64,000 nucleotides of DNA, from positions 214,633 through 278,632 of the forward strand of contig QQVD01000068.1 in NCBI GenBank assembly GCA_003388555.1, written 5' to 3'. Numbering within the stretch: position 1 is the first letter of the stretch; the number at the start of each line of letters is the position of its first letter. Of the stretch, positions 27,919-34,893 are shown piece by piece. The notes beneath the pieces are model-generated. The model was not told the origin of the DNA, ran no database searches, and worked only from the letters and a program-made list of their open reading frames with translations. Source of the DNA: Acidobacteriota bacterium (lineage in GTDB: Bacteria; Acidobacteriota; Thermoanaerobaculia; Multivoradales; Multivoraceae). The position numbers and the translations under genes are program-made.

Positions 27919-29544
27919 TCAGGGGCGACGCTCGACCACCTCGAGGCTCACCGGATCGCGAGCCGGCAGCTCGCGCGCCGGCCGTTCTCCGAGGATCGAT
28001 TCGAACTGGCCCATCTTTGCACGACCCTCGGGATCGCCGGGCGCGATCTCCTCCCAGTCACCGACCACGAGGATCGACATCTCCTCCGGCACCAGGTACT
28101 CCCGGGCGACTCGTCGGATGTCCTCGCGGGTCACGGCGCCGACCCGTGAGCGGTACTGGCGCCAGAAGCTCGGCGGGCGATCGACGAGCACGTCGGAGGC
28201 GTAGATCGACGCCACCGCCTCGGCGGAGTCGAAGTTGCCGGGGAAGGTGTCGATGAAGGCCGCCTTCGCCGTCGCCAGCTCCTGCTCGCTGACCAGCTCG
28301 TTGCGCAGCCTGTCGATCTCCTCGAAGGCGATCTGCGTCGCGAAGGCGACGGTCTCGCTCTTCGACTGGAAGCCGATCTGGAATCTCCCCTGCCAGTAGA
28401 GGCCGAGGTTGAACTGCGAGCCCGCAGAATAGGCCAGGCCCTCGTCGGAGCGGATGCGCTTGGTGATCCTCGAGGTGAACCCGCCGCCACCGAGGATGTC
28501 GTTCATCAGCAGGGTCGGGAAGTAGTCGGGATCGTCCCAGCCGTCGAGCTGGGCGGTCGGCAGGCCGATGTACACCCGGCCCTGGGGGATCTCCTTCTCG
28601 ACGTAGTAGACGCCCGGGGTCGGCCGGTGACGGATCGGCGGCGGCGGCCAGGGAGTGTCGGCGGCCTCGCCCCCGGGCCGCCACGTGGCGAGGCGTTCGG
28701 CGAGCTGCGCGAGGATCGCCGGCGTCTCGACGTCGCCCGAGACGCTGAACACCAGCTTCCCAGGCCGCCAGTAGTCGCGGTGGAAGGCGGCCAGCGCGTC
28801 GCGATCGATGCGGTCGAGGTCCGAGCCGGTGACGCGGCGAGTCGAGTGGTGCTCGCGGCCGAAGAGCAGCCACTCCCATTCGCGCGCCGCGACGTCGGCG
28901 GGATCGTCGTTGCGCTGCTTGAGGCTCTCGAGGAGGTTCTGCTTCTCGATCCGCAGCTGGGCGTCGTCGAAGCGCGGCGTCGCGAGCATGGCGAAGAAGA
29001 GATCGAGGCAGCCGTCGAGGGCGGCTCGCACGCAGTTCACCGACGCCGAGGACTGGTAGTCCGAAGCGGAGCTGCGCAGCTCCGCGGCCAGGAAGTCGGC
29101 GCGCTCCTCGAAGCCGTCCGGGTCGAGATCCCCCGCGCCGCCGCGGCGCATCATGATCGCGGTGAGCTGCGCCAGGCCGACCCGGTCGTCGGGATCGAGG
29201 AAGCTGCCCACCCTGGTCGACACCGTGATGTCGACCAGAGGCAGGGTGTGGTCCTCGGCGACGAAGGCCACCTGCCCGCCTGGCAACTGGTGGCGGATCG
29301 CGTCGGGATCGGGCAGCTCGAACTGCAGCGGCTCGTATTCGAGCTCGGTGGGGTGGGCCGGGATCTCGTCGCTCGTCGCGGCCTGGGAGGCTGCGGTCGC
29401 GAGCAGGGCGAGCAACGGCAGGGCGGTGACAATCGGCGCGGCGGCGCAGGGCCGGCGCCAGCGCAGCGGCCGGGAGACACGGAGGCTGCCGGGCGCCGGG
29501 TCGCCCGGCGGGCAGGAGATGCTGGTCACACGCGTCGCTCTCAT
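27919..29544 (-). CDS. M16 peptidase family protein, non-catalytic partner
   Basis: A 541-residue exported protein with a signal peptide (hydrophobic stretch about 38-56) and two M16 domains. At the position of the zinc-binding HxxEH it reads GLAQLTAIMM, so it lacks the metal site. The C-terminal half retains RSDEGLAYSAGSQF, containing the Arg/Tyr pair that binds substrate in the regulatory subunit. This matches the alpha-type member of heterodimeric M16B peptidases. Its ATG begins 1 nt after the stop of the catalytic partner, so the two are translated together. Confidence 0.86.
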   Translation of the reverse strand: MRATRVTSISCPPGDPAPGSLRVSRPLRWRRPCAAAPIVTALPLLALLATAASQAATSDEIPAHPTELEYEPLQFELPDPDAIRHQLPGGQVAFVAEDHTLPLVDITVSTRVGSFLDPDDRVGLAQLTAIMMRRGGAGDLDPDGFEERADFLAAELRSSASDYQSSASVNCVRAALDGCLDLFFAMLATPRFDDAQLRIEKQNLLESLKQRNDDPADVAAREWEWLLFGREHHSTRRVTGSDLDRIDRDALAAFHRDYWRPGKLVFSVSGDVETPAILAQLAERLATWRPGGEAADTPWPPPPIRHRPTPGVYYVEKEIPQGRVYIGLPTAQLDGWDDPDYFPTLLMNDILGGGGFTSRITKRIRSDEGLAYSAGSQFNLGLYWQGRFQIGFQSKSETVAFATQIAFEEIDRLRNELVSEQELATAKAAFIDTFPGNFDSAEAVASIYASDVLVDRPPSFWRQYRSRVGAVTREDIRRVAREYLVPEEMSILVVGDWEEIAPGDPEGRAKMGQFESILGERPARELPARDPVSLEVVERRP

Positions 29545-29545
29545 C

Positions 29546-31396
29546 TCATTCCTCCGTCAGCTCGGCGATCCTCGCTTCGAGCTTCTGGCGCACGTACTCG
29601 AAGCCGGCCCGCATCTCCTCGGGCACCGAGGCGGCGTTGGCCGTCATCTGCGCCAGGAAGCCGCGCAGCCGCTCGACGTCGTCGATCTGCGCCAGCTGCG
29701 CGATCTGCGCCTCGACCTGGCGACGCACCTGGTCGGGCAGTCCGGCGAGCTCCTCGGCAACCGGCTCGTCGCTCGTTCCCGCCTTCCGCGTGTAGCTGGC
29801 GACGAGTCGGTTGCTCGGTTCGAAGTACTGGCGAGCGACCCGCTGCACGTCCTCCGCGGTCACCGCTTCGAGCCGGTCGGCGAGGGTGTTGTAGTAAGTG
29901 GCGTCACCGAGACCTTCGAGGATCGCCAGCTGCAGCATCATGAACAGAGGGTTCTGCAAGCTCCGGAAGACGCTGGCCTGCTGCACGTTCTTCACCCGCC
30001 GCAGCTCCTCGGCGGCGACCGGCTCCTGCTGCAGCTGGCGCAGCACGTCGTACCAGGCCTGCTCCAGCTGCGCCGGGGTGGCGTCGCCCTTGGCTTCGGC
30101 GGTGAAGCTGAAATAGCCCGCATACTTGTCGGAGGCCTGCAGCGAGCGGGCGCTCGAGGCGATCTCACGCCCGTCGACGAGCTCGCCGTAGAGCCTGCCG
30201 GCGCGACCGTTGAGCACCCCCTGCAGGATGTCGAGCGCGTAGCTGTCGGGATGCAGGAAGGCGACCGTGTGGTAGCGCACCTCGACCTGCGGCTGACAGT
30301 CGCACTCGCCGTTCATCCGCTTCTCGGCGCGCTGTTCCATCTCGAGCGTGACCACGTCGGGCACCGCCGGGCCTCGCTCGAGACGCCCGAAGTAGCGCTC
30401 GGCGAGGGTGCGCACGGCGGCGGGATCGAAGTTGCCGACCAGCACCGCGGAGAGGTTGTTGGGAGCGTAGTAGGTGTCGTAGAAGGCGTCGGCCTGCGCC
30501 TTGCTGATCACCCGTAGGTCCGAGGGCCAGCCGACCACCGGCCAGCTGTACGGATGCGACTGCCAGAACATCGCCTCGACCAGCTCGTCGAACTCGCCGG
30601 TGGGCGTCGACTCGGTGCGCAGCCGACGCTCCTCGTAGACCACGTCGCGCTCGGAGTAGAACTCCCGGAACACCGGATTGAGGAGCCGCTCCGACTCCAT
30701 CCAGAACCACAGCTCCAGCTTGTTCGCCGGCACGCTGATGAAATACACCGTGTTGTCGTTGTTGGTGAAGGCGTTCATGAAGGTGGCGCCTTCGGCGGTG
30801 TAGATCTGGTCGAACTCGTCCTTGACCATCACCTCGCGCTGCGCCTGCACCAGCTCGGCGAAGCGCTCCTCGAGCGCCACCAGCTCCGGCGGCCGGTTCT
30901 CGGCCGCGTAGGGATCGTCGATCTCGCCCTGCCGGGCGCGGCGGCGCAGATCGCGGTAGATGCCCCGGATCTGCTCCTGCACCTCTTCCTGCTGCGCGAT
31001 GATCTCGAGGTCGCGCTCGATGTCCCGGGTGCCGATCGTCGTCGAGCCTTTGAACATCATGTGCTCGAAGAGGTGCGCCATGCCGGTGATGCCGGGGCGC
31101 TCGTTGGCTGCCCCGACGTGGGCGACCCAGGCACCGCCGACGGTCGCCATCTCGGGCCGCTGGACCATCAGGAAGCGCATCCCGTTGGCCAGCTCGAAGG
31201 TCTCGAAGTCGATGCCGCTCGAGCCCGGCGACGAGTCGGCCACGGCGCCGGCGCCGGTCGCAGCGGCCGGCGGCATCGACGCTACGGCGCCGCCGGGCAA
31301 CATCGATGCGATCAGGGCGCACAGCAGCAGGAGGGATGCGGTGTCGGTCGCCGGGACGGGGCGCCCGGTCGGGTGGGACGATCTCGTTTGCTTCAT
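29546..31396 (-). CDS. M16 zinc metallopeptidase (insulinase/pitrilysin family)
   Basis: A 616-residue exported zinc peptidase. The inverted zinc motif HLFEH is at residues 108-112 (zinc His108 and His112, catalytic Glu111), in the typical context GMAHLFEHMMFKGS. A signal peptide spans about 20-40. A second M16_C domain (about 300-480) follows, then a C-terminal extension of about 100 residues. The ATG at 31396 was chosen over the one at 31474 because GAGGTGA precedes it and the signal peptide follows directly. It is expected to pair with the downstream non-catalytic M16 protein in the periplasm. Confidence 0.9.
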   Translation of the reverse strand: MKQTRSSHPTGRPVPATDTASLLLLCALIASMLPGGAVASMPPAAATGAGAVADSSPGSSGIDFETFELANGMRFLMVQRPEMATVGGAWVAHVGAANERPGITGMAHLFEHMMFKGSTTIGTRDIERDLEIIAQQEEVQEQIRGIYRDLRRRARQGEIDDPYAAENRPPELVALEERFAELVQAQREVMVKDEFDQIYTAEGATFMNAFTNNDNTVYFISVPANKLELWFWMESERLLNPVFREFYSERDVVYEERRLRTESTPTGEFDELVEAMFWQSHPYSWPVVGWPSDLRVISKAQADAFYDTYYAPNNLSAVLVGNFDPAAVRTLAERYFGRLERGPAVPDVVTLEMEQRAEKRMNGECDCQPQVEVRYHTVAFLHPDSYALDILQGVLNGRAGRLYGELVDGREIASSARSLQASDKYAGYFSFTAEAKGDATPAQLEQAWYDVLRQLQQEPVAAEELRRVKNVQQASVFRSLQNPLFMMLQLAILEGLGDATYYNTLADRLEAVTAEDVQRVARQYFEPSNRLVASYTRKAGTSDEPVAEELAGLPDQVRRQVEAQIAQLAQIDDVERLRGFLAQMTANAASVPEEMRAGFEYVRQKLEARIAELTEE

Positions 31397-31603
31397 TCGC
31401 TGGTCACCTCGATCCTCGGGCCCTCTCGGCGGACGGTCGGCGCGCCTGCCGGCCACGGACGCGCTGCGCCCCACACCGGCCGGCGACGGCTCCTGGCCGC
31501 GTCGCGATCGGCGACCAGCGGAGGGCCTCTGGGAGACCGGCGCAGCCGGTGGTCGCCCCAGAGAGTACGTGGGACGGCGGGCTCGGGTTGGCTGCTCGGC
31601 CGG

Positions 31604-32083
31604 TCAGAGCGACTTCAGGTATTCGTAGATGGCGCGCGCGTCCTGCTCACTGAGGCGGTAGGGCGGCATCGGCGGCCGCGGCGTGTCGCCCGAGCGGCGG
31701 ACTCCCGTTCCGAGGAAGCGAACCCATTCCTCCTCGGTGTAGCCGAGCGCGTTGCGCAGGTTGGGCGCCTGGAAGGCCCAGCGACGGGCGCCCGTCCATG
31801 GGCTCTTGAACGGGATCGCCCCGCCGGTGAGCAGACGGCTCGTGTCGAGCTCGCCGCGCCGGTCGCGCGGCGAATGGCACTGCACGCAGAGTGCCGCCTC
31901 GTGCACCAGATAGCGGCCGCGCTCGACCGTCGGATCGGTGCTGGTGGTGGCCGCGGCGCCAGGCGAGGCCACCGGCAGGTCCGCCGCGGCCTCCTGCCCG
32001 GCGGCGCGGTCTCCGCCGGCGACCAGGGCGAGCGCGACGATTGCTGCTGCGGCTGTCGTTCCTATCCTCATCTTGGATCCCAT
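31604..32083 (-). CDS. c-type cytochrome
   Basis: A 159-residue exported monoheme cytochrome c. After a signal peptide (AAAAIVALALVAGG) the heme motif CVQCH lies at 66-70, and a likely axial methionine sits in RPPMPPY near residue 139. The C-terminal SEQDARAIYEYLKSL is the usual last helix of class I cytochromes. The start could be the ATG at 32083 or the one at 32071 (four codons later). The type with GRYLVHEAALCVQCHSPRD resembles small cytochromes of dehydrogenase complexes; no partner is adjacent. It diverges from the selenoprotein gene. Confidence 0.85.
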   Translation of the reverse strand: MGSKMRIGTTAAAAIVALALVAGGDRAAGQEAAADLPVASPGAAATTSTDPTVERGRYLVHEAALCVQCHSPRDRRGELDTSRLLTGGAIPFKSPWTGARRWAFQAPNLRNALGYTEEEWVRFLGTGVRRSGDTPRPPMPPYRLSEQDARAIYEYLKSL

Positions 32084-32311
32084 CTCCAGAGCGGTGTTCA
32101 GTTCTCGGCAAGCGGACCCGGGCGGTCGGAGCGCCAGAGCGATCTGGCCCGGCACCTGGCAGGCGACCCACGACTCCCCTGCGGCCGCGCGCGAGCTGGC
32201 GCCCGGGCGTCGCGTGGACTCCGCAGCCCATCCTCCCTGCCATCCTACGACAGGCTACGGGCCGACGGATGAGCCCTTCGAAGCGATACCGTAAGCTGCC
32301 GCGGCGCCCCC

Positions 32312-32357: not shown

Positions 32358-33065
32358 ATGCCGCCCACCTCACCAGGCCAGCAGCAGTCTCCCGAACGCC
32401 GTTCTGCGAAGGCTGGCAGCGCCACGAGCCGCGGCTCCTCCGTGGGTTGGATCACCACCGTGGCGCCGGAGCAGGCCACGGGCCTGCTGGCGCGGATCTA
32501 CCGCCAGGCGATGCGGCGCGCCGGCAAGGTGTTCCACGTCCTGCGCATCCAGAGTCTGCGTCCGAGGACGCTCGACGCCTCGACCCGGCTGTACGGTGAG
32601 GTCATGCTGGCGACCGACAGCCCGCTGACGCGCCTGCAGCGCGAGATGCTGGCTACCGCCGTGTCGCAGGCCAACGACTGCCACTACTGAACCCGCGCGC
32701 ACGCCGACGATCTCCGGGCCGAGATCGCGAGACGGAACGAGGGGCCGCGGTCGGGCGGCAGCGAGGAGAGTGCCGTCGATCCGGAGCTCGCCGATCTCGT
32801 CGCCGCCGGTGGTGCGAGGGAGCGCCTGGGGGAAGCGGATCGCGCCCTCTACGACTTCGCCATCGAGCTGACGCTGCGGCCGGCCGCGGTGGGCGCCGAG
32901 GACGTCGAACGCCTGCGCCAGGTGGGCTTCGACGACGTCGCGATCCACGACGCGGTTCAGGTCGTGGCACTCTTCGCGTACTACAACCGCCTCGCCGAAG
33001 GGCTGGGGCTCGGCGACGAGCCGGAGTGGATCGAGAAACCGCCCGACGGGGAGGACGGCGACTGA
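32358..33065 (+). CDS. AhpD-like/peroxidase-related selenoprotein (in-frame UGA = Sec111)
   Basis: Read as one frame with the TGA at 32688-32690 as selenocysteine, this gives 235 residues of the carboxymuconolactone decarboxylase/AhpD-like peroxidase-related family. The N-terminal half carries TVAPEQATGLLARIY and LTRLQREMLATAVSQANDCHY; the half after the TGA carries ALYDFAIELTLRP and VVALFAYYNRLAEGLG, both typical of the family. The redox motif would be Cys108-His-Tyr-Sec111-x-x-x-His115, that is CxxUxxxH where AhpD has CxxCxxxH. A stem-loop follows the TGA (32708-32727). GGAG lies 8 nt before the ATG. CxxU AhpD-like selenoproteins are known in other bacteria; without Sec decoding, only a 110-residue fragment would be made. 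Confidence 0.85.
32708..32727 (+). promoter_or_regulatory. candidate bacterial SECIS stem-loop
   Basis: CGATCTC-CGGGCC-GAGATCG forms a perfect 7-bp stem with a 6-nt loop that begins CGG. The stem begins 17 nt and the loop 24 nt after the UGA, inside the spacing usual for SelB-binding bacterial SECIS elements (apical loop about 16-37 nt downstream, with G in the loop). It is coding sequence, as bacterial SECIS elements are. Confidence 0.6.
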
Positions 33066-33165: not shown

Positions 33166-34893
33166 ATGAGCGACCTCCAGCCATCCACGACTGGTCCGCC
33201 GCCGCGCCCCGCGCCGAAGGTCGGCGGGCGGACCACCGCGCGCTGGATCCTCTCCGTCGCCGCCTTCTCTCTCTGCGCCCTGATGACCGCATGGCTGCTG
33301 CACCGCGAGCTCGGCAGCTCGCAGGGTCAGCTGGTGGTCGACGAGAATCTTCGCCTCGACGAGCCGCGCGAATCGCACCTCGGCATCTACGTCGGCGAGC
33401 CCGAAGACGGCAACCGCGTCGGCCACGTGACCCTGCGCCAGCTGCCGGAGATACGGGAGCGCAGCGAGGGAACCCTGCTCGAGGTGGATCTGGGCCTCGA
33501 CCTCCAGCTCTTCGGGCGCGCCACCCGCCTGTCGCTCGAAGGCACCAGCTGGGGCGCGTGGCGCGGCGGCGGCCGGGACTTCGACTTCGCCGTGCGCTCG
33601 GCGGGCAGCGAGTTCCGGCTCGTCGGCGAGGTCGAGGAGGGCCGCCTGCAGGCGGTCGTGCACAGTGCCGGCGAGGAGTTCCCGCTCGAGATCCCCCTAC
33701 CGCCGGACGCCCTCCTGCAGCCCAGCCTCGGCACGGCGTTGAGCTTCCCGGTGCTCGAGGTGGGCCAGAGCGCCGTGGTGCCGACCTTCGATCCGATCAC
33801 CCTCGGACCCGGCCGGGCGCGGGTGCGCGCCATTCGCCGACAGCAGATGGATCTCGGCTCCGGCCCACGGCCGGTGAGGGTCTACCGGGTCGAGACCAGC
33901 GGCTTCACCAGCGAAGCCTGGGTCGATGAGCGCGGCGAGATCGTCCGCGCCACGACGCCGCTCGGCCTGACCCTGGCGCTCGAGCAGGGTCCCGAGGGTC
34001 CGGTCGGCGGTGCTCCCTCGCGCGGCGCGGCCCTGCAGGGCACCGATCTGCTGCGCCGGACCGCGGTGGTGCCAGCGCCGAGCGGGCCGCAGGTGCAGCG
34101 CGGCCTGGTGCGGCTGGTGGCGCGTCTGCGGATCGAAAGCGATCCCTCGCAGTGGGGACGTGAGCTTTCCGACGACGGCGCCGAGTCGGCGCGAGACGGA
34201 GCCGAGGCAGACGTCGCGGGCGCCTTCGACGTCACCGTGCAGCCGCCGCGCGACGCCTTCCAGCAAACGGTCTCCGAAGCCACACCCGAGCCGCCGGCAA
34301 CGGGGCCGAGCGTCGAGGGGTCGGCCGACACCGGGGCAACCGGCGCCGGGACGGTCTGGCGCTTCTCGGCATCGGGCGACGGCGACCACGCACCCCCGGA
34401 GCCGTCCCACCTGGCGGCCGACCCGTTCGTGCAGAGCGACCACCCGCGTATCGTGGCGGCTTCGCGCGAGGTGCTGTCGGCGCTCCCCGAGGACGCCACC
34501 GACGCCGAGCGGGCCCTCGCCATCTACGAGTGGGTGTGGACGCGGATCGACAAGCAGCCGGTGCTCGGAGTGCCTTCCGCGCTCGAGGTCCTCGGCACGC
34601 TGCGCGGCGACTGCAACGAGCACACCATCCTCTACACCGCGCTCGCCCGCGCCGCCGGCCTGCCGACACGCATCGCCATCGGCCTCGTGTGGAGCGAGGA
34701 GCTGGCCGGCTTCTACTACCACGCCTGGCCCGAGGTCTGGCTCGGCGACGCGTGGCGGCGCTACGACCCCACCCTCGGCCAGCAGCGGGCCGACGCCACC
34801 CACATCAAGCTGCTCGAGGGCGGCATCGAGCGTTGGCCGCAGCTGCTCGCCTTCCTCGGCCGTCTGCAGATCGAGGTCCTGGAGATCGAATGA
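33166..34893 (+). CDS. membrane-anchored transglutaminase-like protein
   Basis: A 575-residue protein with one N-terminal transmembrane helix (about 25-45) and a large extracytoplasmic part. The C-terminal transglutaminase-like (papain-fold) domain has the catalytic triad Cys483 (RGDCNEHT), His519 (YYHAWPEVW) and Asp534 (RYDPTLGQ). The middle 400 residues are beta-rich and not recognised, with a low-complexity Pro/Ala/Glu linker near 350-420. Bacterial members act as peptidases or crosslinkers; the substrate is unknown. Its stop overlaps the ATG of an ABC ATPase (ATGA), so it is part of an operon with the following transporter. Confidence 0.84.
   Translation: MSDLQPSTTGPPPRPAPKVGGRTTARWILSVAAFSLCALMTAWLLHRELGSSQGQLVVDENLRLDEPRESHLGIYVGEPEDGNRVGHVTLRQLPEIRERSEGTLLEVDLGLDLQLFGRATRLSLEGTSWGAWRGGGRDFDFAVRSAGSEFRLVGEVEEGRLQAVVHSAGEEFPLEIPLPPDALLQPSLGTALSFPVLEVGQSAVVPTFDPITLGPGRARVRAIRRQQMDLGSGPRPVRVYRVETSGFTSEAWVDERGEIVRATTPLGLTLALEQGPEGPVGGAPSRGAALQGTDLLRRTAVVPAPSGPQVQRGLVRLVARLRIESDPSQWGRELSDDGAESARDGAEADVAGAFDVTVQPPRDAFQQTVSEATPEPPATGPSVEGSADTGATGAGTVWRFSASGDGDHAPPEPSHLAADPFVQSDHPRIVAASREVLSALPEDATDAERALAIYEWVWTRIDKQPVLGVPSALEVLGTLRGDCNEHTILYTALARAAGLPTRIAIGLVWSEELAGFYYHAWPEVWLGDAWRRYDPTLGQQRADATHIKLLEGGIERWPQLLAFLGRLQIEVLEIE

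Follow-up and report, generated by a model that had tools for sequence, protein, structure and literature searches.

AhpD-like selenoproteins with a CxxU motif were described in 2005 from the Sargasso Sea (PMC1088965) and in 2008 from the Global Ocean Sampling data (PMC2398784), where they were filed under COG2128 or pfam02627. More recently, a 2026 review listed "AhpD-like, TIGR01926, CxxU" as a selenoprotein, crediting its reference 59 (PMC13188914). Other AhpD proteins use cysteine at both redox positions. Among them are AhpD of Mycobacterium tuberculosis, the adaptor of AhpC, and PA0269, an AhpD-like protein of Pseudomonas aeruginosa. The relay of PA0269 is made of Glu36, Cys48, Tyr50, Cys51 and His55, which correspond to Glu118, Cys130, His132, Cys133 and His137 of M. 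tuberculosis AhpD (PMC3141380). PA0269 has weak peroxidase activity, and the substrates of AhpD-like proteins are unknown (PMC3141380).

The locus analyzed here lies in a stretch of 64,000 nucleotides of an Acidobacteriota genome, hereafter the window. Its gene shares with the catalogued TIGR01926 selenoprotein the curated family, the CxxU motif and a bacterial SECIS element after the UGA; only the organism and the sequence differ, and there is no categorical difference. The gene therefore adds a further, well-founded case to a selenoprotein kind that is already on record, and leaves the list of known kinds unchanged. The first-pass annotation of this DNA had mentioned AhpD-like CxxU proteins from other bacteria, and the literature bears it out down to TIGR01926 itself. 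From the sequence, we consider it very probable (around 95%) that the gene encodes an AhpD-like selenoprotein of the TIGR01926 type, whose UGA would be recoded by SelB at the SECIS element to give a thiol/selenol oxidoreductase.

Gene structure and neighbourhood

The positions of the gene, its motifs and its neighbours are given in Table 1. The reading frame spans 235 codons, of which the only internal TGA is codon 111; the 124 codons between it and the terminal TGA (33063-33065) are all sense codons, and there is no frameshift. The translation thus confirms what the first-pass annotation had claimed, a single TGA in a frame open on both sides. It also confirms the product that gene callers would report, since a reading with table 11 ends at 110 amino acids.

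Table 1. Features of the locus, in window coordinates.
Feature	Position	Strand	Basis and remarks
AhpD-like (TIGR01926) gene, predicted selenoprotein	32358..33065	+	235 residues if the TGA is decoded as Sec; translation, TIGR01926 (E 2.1e-39), CMD domain, homologous frames continue past the TGA
Alternative GTG start, codon 29	32442..32444	+	matches the position of Met in most relatives; no evident ribosome-binding site
TGC codon of Cys108, which opens the CxxU redox motif	32679..32681	+	sequence; invariant column
In-frame TGA, predicted Sec111	32688..32690	+	TGA in 59/65 related loci, Cys in 6, terminating in 0
SECIS hairpin	32708..32727	+	7-bp stem, 32708-32714 with 32721-32727; apical loop CGGGCC, 32715-32720; fold, covariation, bacterial SECIS rules
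Two adjacent M16 (insulinase-type) peptidase genes	27919-31474	-	upstream; neighbourhood conserved in genomes G002 and G003
Cytochrome c domain protein	31604..32155	-	Pfam PF00034; adjoins the gene in two same-family genomes
Transglutaminase-core protein	33166..34893	+	Pfam PF01841; downstream; adjoins the gene in two same-family genomes

The true start is slightly uncertain: it may be the ATG at 32358, upstream of which stands a GGAG, or the GTG at 32442. Because the Met of most relatives aligns with this GTG, the first 28 residues (32358-32441), which most relatives lack, may be untranslated or an extension specific to the lineage. The vicinity of the gene showed neither a sigma-70-like promoter nor a terminator. 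Its place between the block of cytochrome c and M16 peptidase genes and the transglutaminase gene recurs in two genomes of the same family (loci L021 and L028). These conserved neighbours support orthology; they indicate no specific pathway, and no peroxide pathway.

Family and active site

The protein matches TIGR01926 ("peroxidase-related", NCBIfam) with 135.2 bits against a cut-off of 81.8 (E 2.1e-39), with matched stretches on either side of the TGA, and a Pfam carboxymuconolactone decarboxylase (CMD) domain covers residues 70-126. The nearest solved homologue, 2oyo, aligns across the TGA (residues 44-225, E 1.3e-18). This structure and four others of the cysteine type (6k40, 3c1l, 2pfx and 2prr) belong to the same family by sequence over most of the length, but carry cysteine where the window protein would have selenocysteine. 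Two further points of the first-pass annotation hold up here: the codons after the TGA are typical of the family, and the TGA stands at the second cysteine of a CxxCxxxH motif (Cys108, Sec111, His115).

Around residue 111 the read-through translation is CHY-U-TRAH, so that the second cysteine of the CxxC motif is replaced (C108-H-Y-U111). The active-site pattern Glu-x11-Cys-x2-Cys/Sec-x3-His is present, with E96, C108, U111 and H115 as invariant columns, and together with Tyr110 these residues reproduce the relay of Glu, Cys, His/Tyr, Cys and His in spacing identical to that of PA0269 and M. tuberculosis AhpD, although both are distant in sequence. Sec111 occupies the place of Cys133 in the latter protein, the cysteine next to the active-site histidine, and would for this reason be the likely attacking residue, acting on a peroxide or another electrophile. 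The product is predicted to be helical, with 235 residues, or about 207 if translation begins at the GTG, and to carry the Cys108-x-x-Sec111 pair with Glu96, Tyr110 and His115. After the attack, a Se-S bond with Cys108 would form, and a thiol donor of the cell would reduce it. Given the matching relay spacing and the position of Sec111 at that of Cys133, we propose that a selenol and a thiol make up a redox pair whose targets are peroxides or disulphides, the catalytic direction, the substrate and the reductant being part of the same proposal.

The alternative that survives best accepts the selenoprotein and questions the peroxidase: the protein may instead be a redox adaptor, a disulphide reductase or a pathway enzyme with an AhpD fold. 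This is tentative but quite possible, since the name of TIGR01926 does not rest on an assayed activity here, the study cited above gives no known substrates for AhpD-like proteins, and the neighbours do not point to peroxides. On the other hand, all five proton-relay residues stand in the AhpD spacing, and it is with this same layout that PA0269 shows its weak peroxidase activity (PMC3141380).

A hairpin after the UGA and its displacement in a sister clade

The first-pass annotation made no mention of a SECIS element. We found a hairpin whose loop starts 24 nt after the UGA, in a short stretch that folds at -9.8 kcal/mol. The published rules for bacterial SECIS elements set a loop of 3-9 nt, a stem of 4-16 bp, a G in the first two loop positions, a spacing of 16-37 nt and a minimum free energy (MFE) of at most -7.5 kcal/mol (PMC13188914). 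The window hairpin, with its loop of 6 nt, stem of 7 bp, spacing of 24 nt and energy of -9.8 kcal/mol, fits all of them. In the preferred reading, SelB with Sec-tRNA-Sec(UCA) would bind this hairpin and the UGA of codon 111 would be decoded as selenocysteine.

The folding energy of the longer stretch, all 42 nt that follow the TGA, was rejected as evidence for the element. Compared with synonymous recodings, its MFE is ordinary for what the stretch encodes and does not separate genes with Sec from genes with Cys; at this GC content there are many alternative folds. We used instead a test of pairing at fixed positions and a count of covariation. Across 28 sequences of the window type, 99% of the cells are paired and 19 are compensatory, with three pairs changing on both sides; when the partner is slid by one to three bases, pairing falls to 28-50%. 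The outermost pair alternates between G-C and C-G, and 6/6 phylogenetically independent contrasts agree (p 0.031). For an inner pair that alternates between C-G and U-A, about three contrasts are in favour and none against, too few for significance. Codon choice points in the same direction: the leucine codon in the stem is CTC in 29/29 sequences and the arginine codon in the loop is CGG or CGT in 29/29, while CGC makes up about half of the arginine codons in a sample of window genes. All seven stem pairs are reached by about 7-25% of synonymous recodings. Since any single pair arises easily in DNA this rich in GC and the stem overlaps conserved codons, it is the covariation and the codon choice that carry the evidence for a structured RNA.

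In the sister clade, with the motif CHYU-xxHHGAGLRR (loci L048, L049 and L066-L096), the stem of the window type is absent. These genes have a six-pair stem, ACGGRG/CTCCGT, and a loop of the CGGGN type at a spacing of 16 nt from the UGA, some 8 nt less than in the window clade; a CGGG-type loop is found in most of them. For each sequence, about 1% of the synonymous recodings pair fully. Four loci (L069, L073, L094 and L095) have another, GC-rich stem, which is CCGGCGC/GCGCCGG in L069 and L073. One locus, L076, combines the protein motif of the sister clade with the register of the window clade and sits on a long branch. As the stem of the sister clade differs in place, the hairpin has shifted between the clades while the Sec codon stayed fixed.

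Conservation of the TGA and use of selenocysteine in the lineage

The set of related genomes numbered 148 with the window's own counted in, and 63 of them contain a homologue. The frame remains open and conserved past the TGA in these relatives, with identities of around 51-61% for the best two dozen, which goes far past what chance would produce. The TGA is present at the codon-111 column in 30/30 of the best loci, again counting the window's own. Over the 65 loci that could be classified, i.e., those where the motif was found (five fetched loci lacking the search motif were left out), the column holds TGA in 59 and a cysteine codon in 6. None terminates there. This agrees with the expectation of the first-pass annotation that homologues hold Cys or Sec in this column and do not end at the TGA. 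The tree of the 65 loci requires three changes between Sec and Cys, several long branches leaving the placement of some cysteine rows unsure. In a broader sample of 396 genomes from the phylum, 124 gave matches with E values no higher than 1e-20, and a single TGA, counted at any position within the gene, occurs in most of the stronger matches.

These observations make it very improbable that the TGA is a genuine stop and the gene a pseudogene or the source of a truncated protein of 110 residues. Table 11 does end the frame there, and the 3' end of the gene itself uses TGA. However, the 124 codons that follow are conserved as protein across many genera, the TGA is itself conserved at a catalytic column, and the truncated form would miss both the second redox residue and the histidine. 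Even less probable is a sequencing or assembly error that turned TGC or TGT into TGA, which the first-pass annotation had raised: a single base separates the TGA from a cysteine codon and some homologues do have Cys, but the TGA is common to independent genomes, which no such error can explain, and is followed by a covarying hairpin. For the family as a whole, this explanation is refuted.

The genome that contains the window (6.8 Mb, 98.8% complete) was searched family by family for the Sec machinery. The genes named by the first-pass annotation, selA, selB, selC and selD, are all there: a tRNA-Sec with a UCA anticodon and an encoded CCA scores over its curated cut-off, and SelA (422 bits), SelB (315 bits) and SelD (228 bits) all exceed theirs. 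Contig C10 of the same genome carries a second AhpD-related gene, with an in-frame TGA within CFYU-TSSH; the gene scores 413 bits with NF041238 against a cut-off of 175 (locus L056, 838-1989; genome G000, around 67281-67679 of the contig; the TGA is codon 261). NF041238 (AhpD_rel_CFYUT, the alkylhydroperoxidase-related (seleno)protein of NCBI) shares with the window protein the AhpD core, the C-x-Y-U-T motif and a TGA in the equivalent redox position. With this model the window protein reaches no more than 59 bits, below the cut-off of 175, and is about 120 residues shorter than its 357 positions. The C10 gene is independent evidence that UGA is decoded as selenocysteine in this organism. Gene callers would truncate it too. 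A scan of genome contigs with the single protein retrieved only two distant homologues, both with cysteine.

UGA readthrough and reassignment exist in bacteria, a general precedent for decoding by a Trp-tRNA or a reassigned code, but the idea of another amino acid at codon 111 is scarcely credible when TGA ends genes in this genome, the AhpD-like gene included, the Sec machinery is complete, and the position is that of the catalytic cysteine in the cysteine homologues, a classic Sec/Cys exchange. Selenocysteine is our preferred reading.

We dropped the co-occurrence of the gene with the Sec machinery as evidence: among the 148 relatives, selA is over its cut-off in 132 and the tRNA-Sec model in 143, with or without the gene, and as the machinery is almost universal its presence alone does not discriminate. 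In one genus of the same family (g2; genomes G001 and G004-G023), selA and tRNA-Sec are kept while the gene is mostly absent, with only four weak matches. This genus must therefore use selenocysteine for other proteins.

Automatic annotation would truncate the AhpD-like gene, a reading that is corrected here. Beyond this gene, we lean towards regarding TIGR01926 in this phylum as mainly a selenoprotein family, and not a cysteine family with occasional Sec. It would comprise at least two Sec clades, with the loop 24 or 16 nt after the UGA and its CGGG type kept, and L076 mixing the motif of one with the register of the other, so that the SECIS element probably moved within the gene family around a fixed Sec codon. 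Nearly all members of the lineage carry selA and tRNA-Sec, and the gene shows that selenium is in wide use among their AhpD-type proteins. For the question of how much displacement a bacterial SECIS element tolerates, the register shift between the sister clades offers a natural data set.
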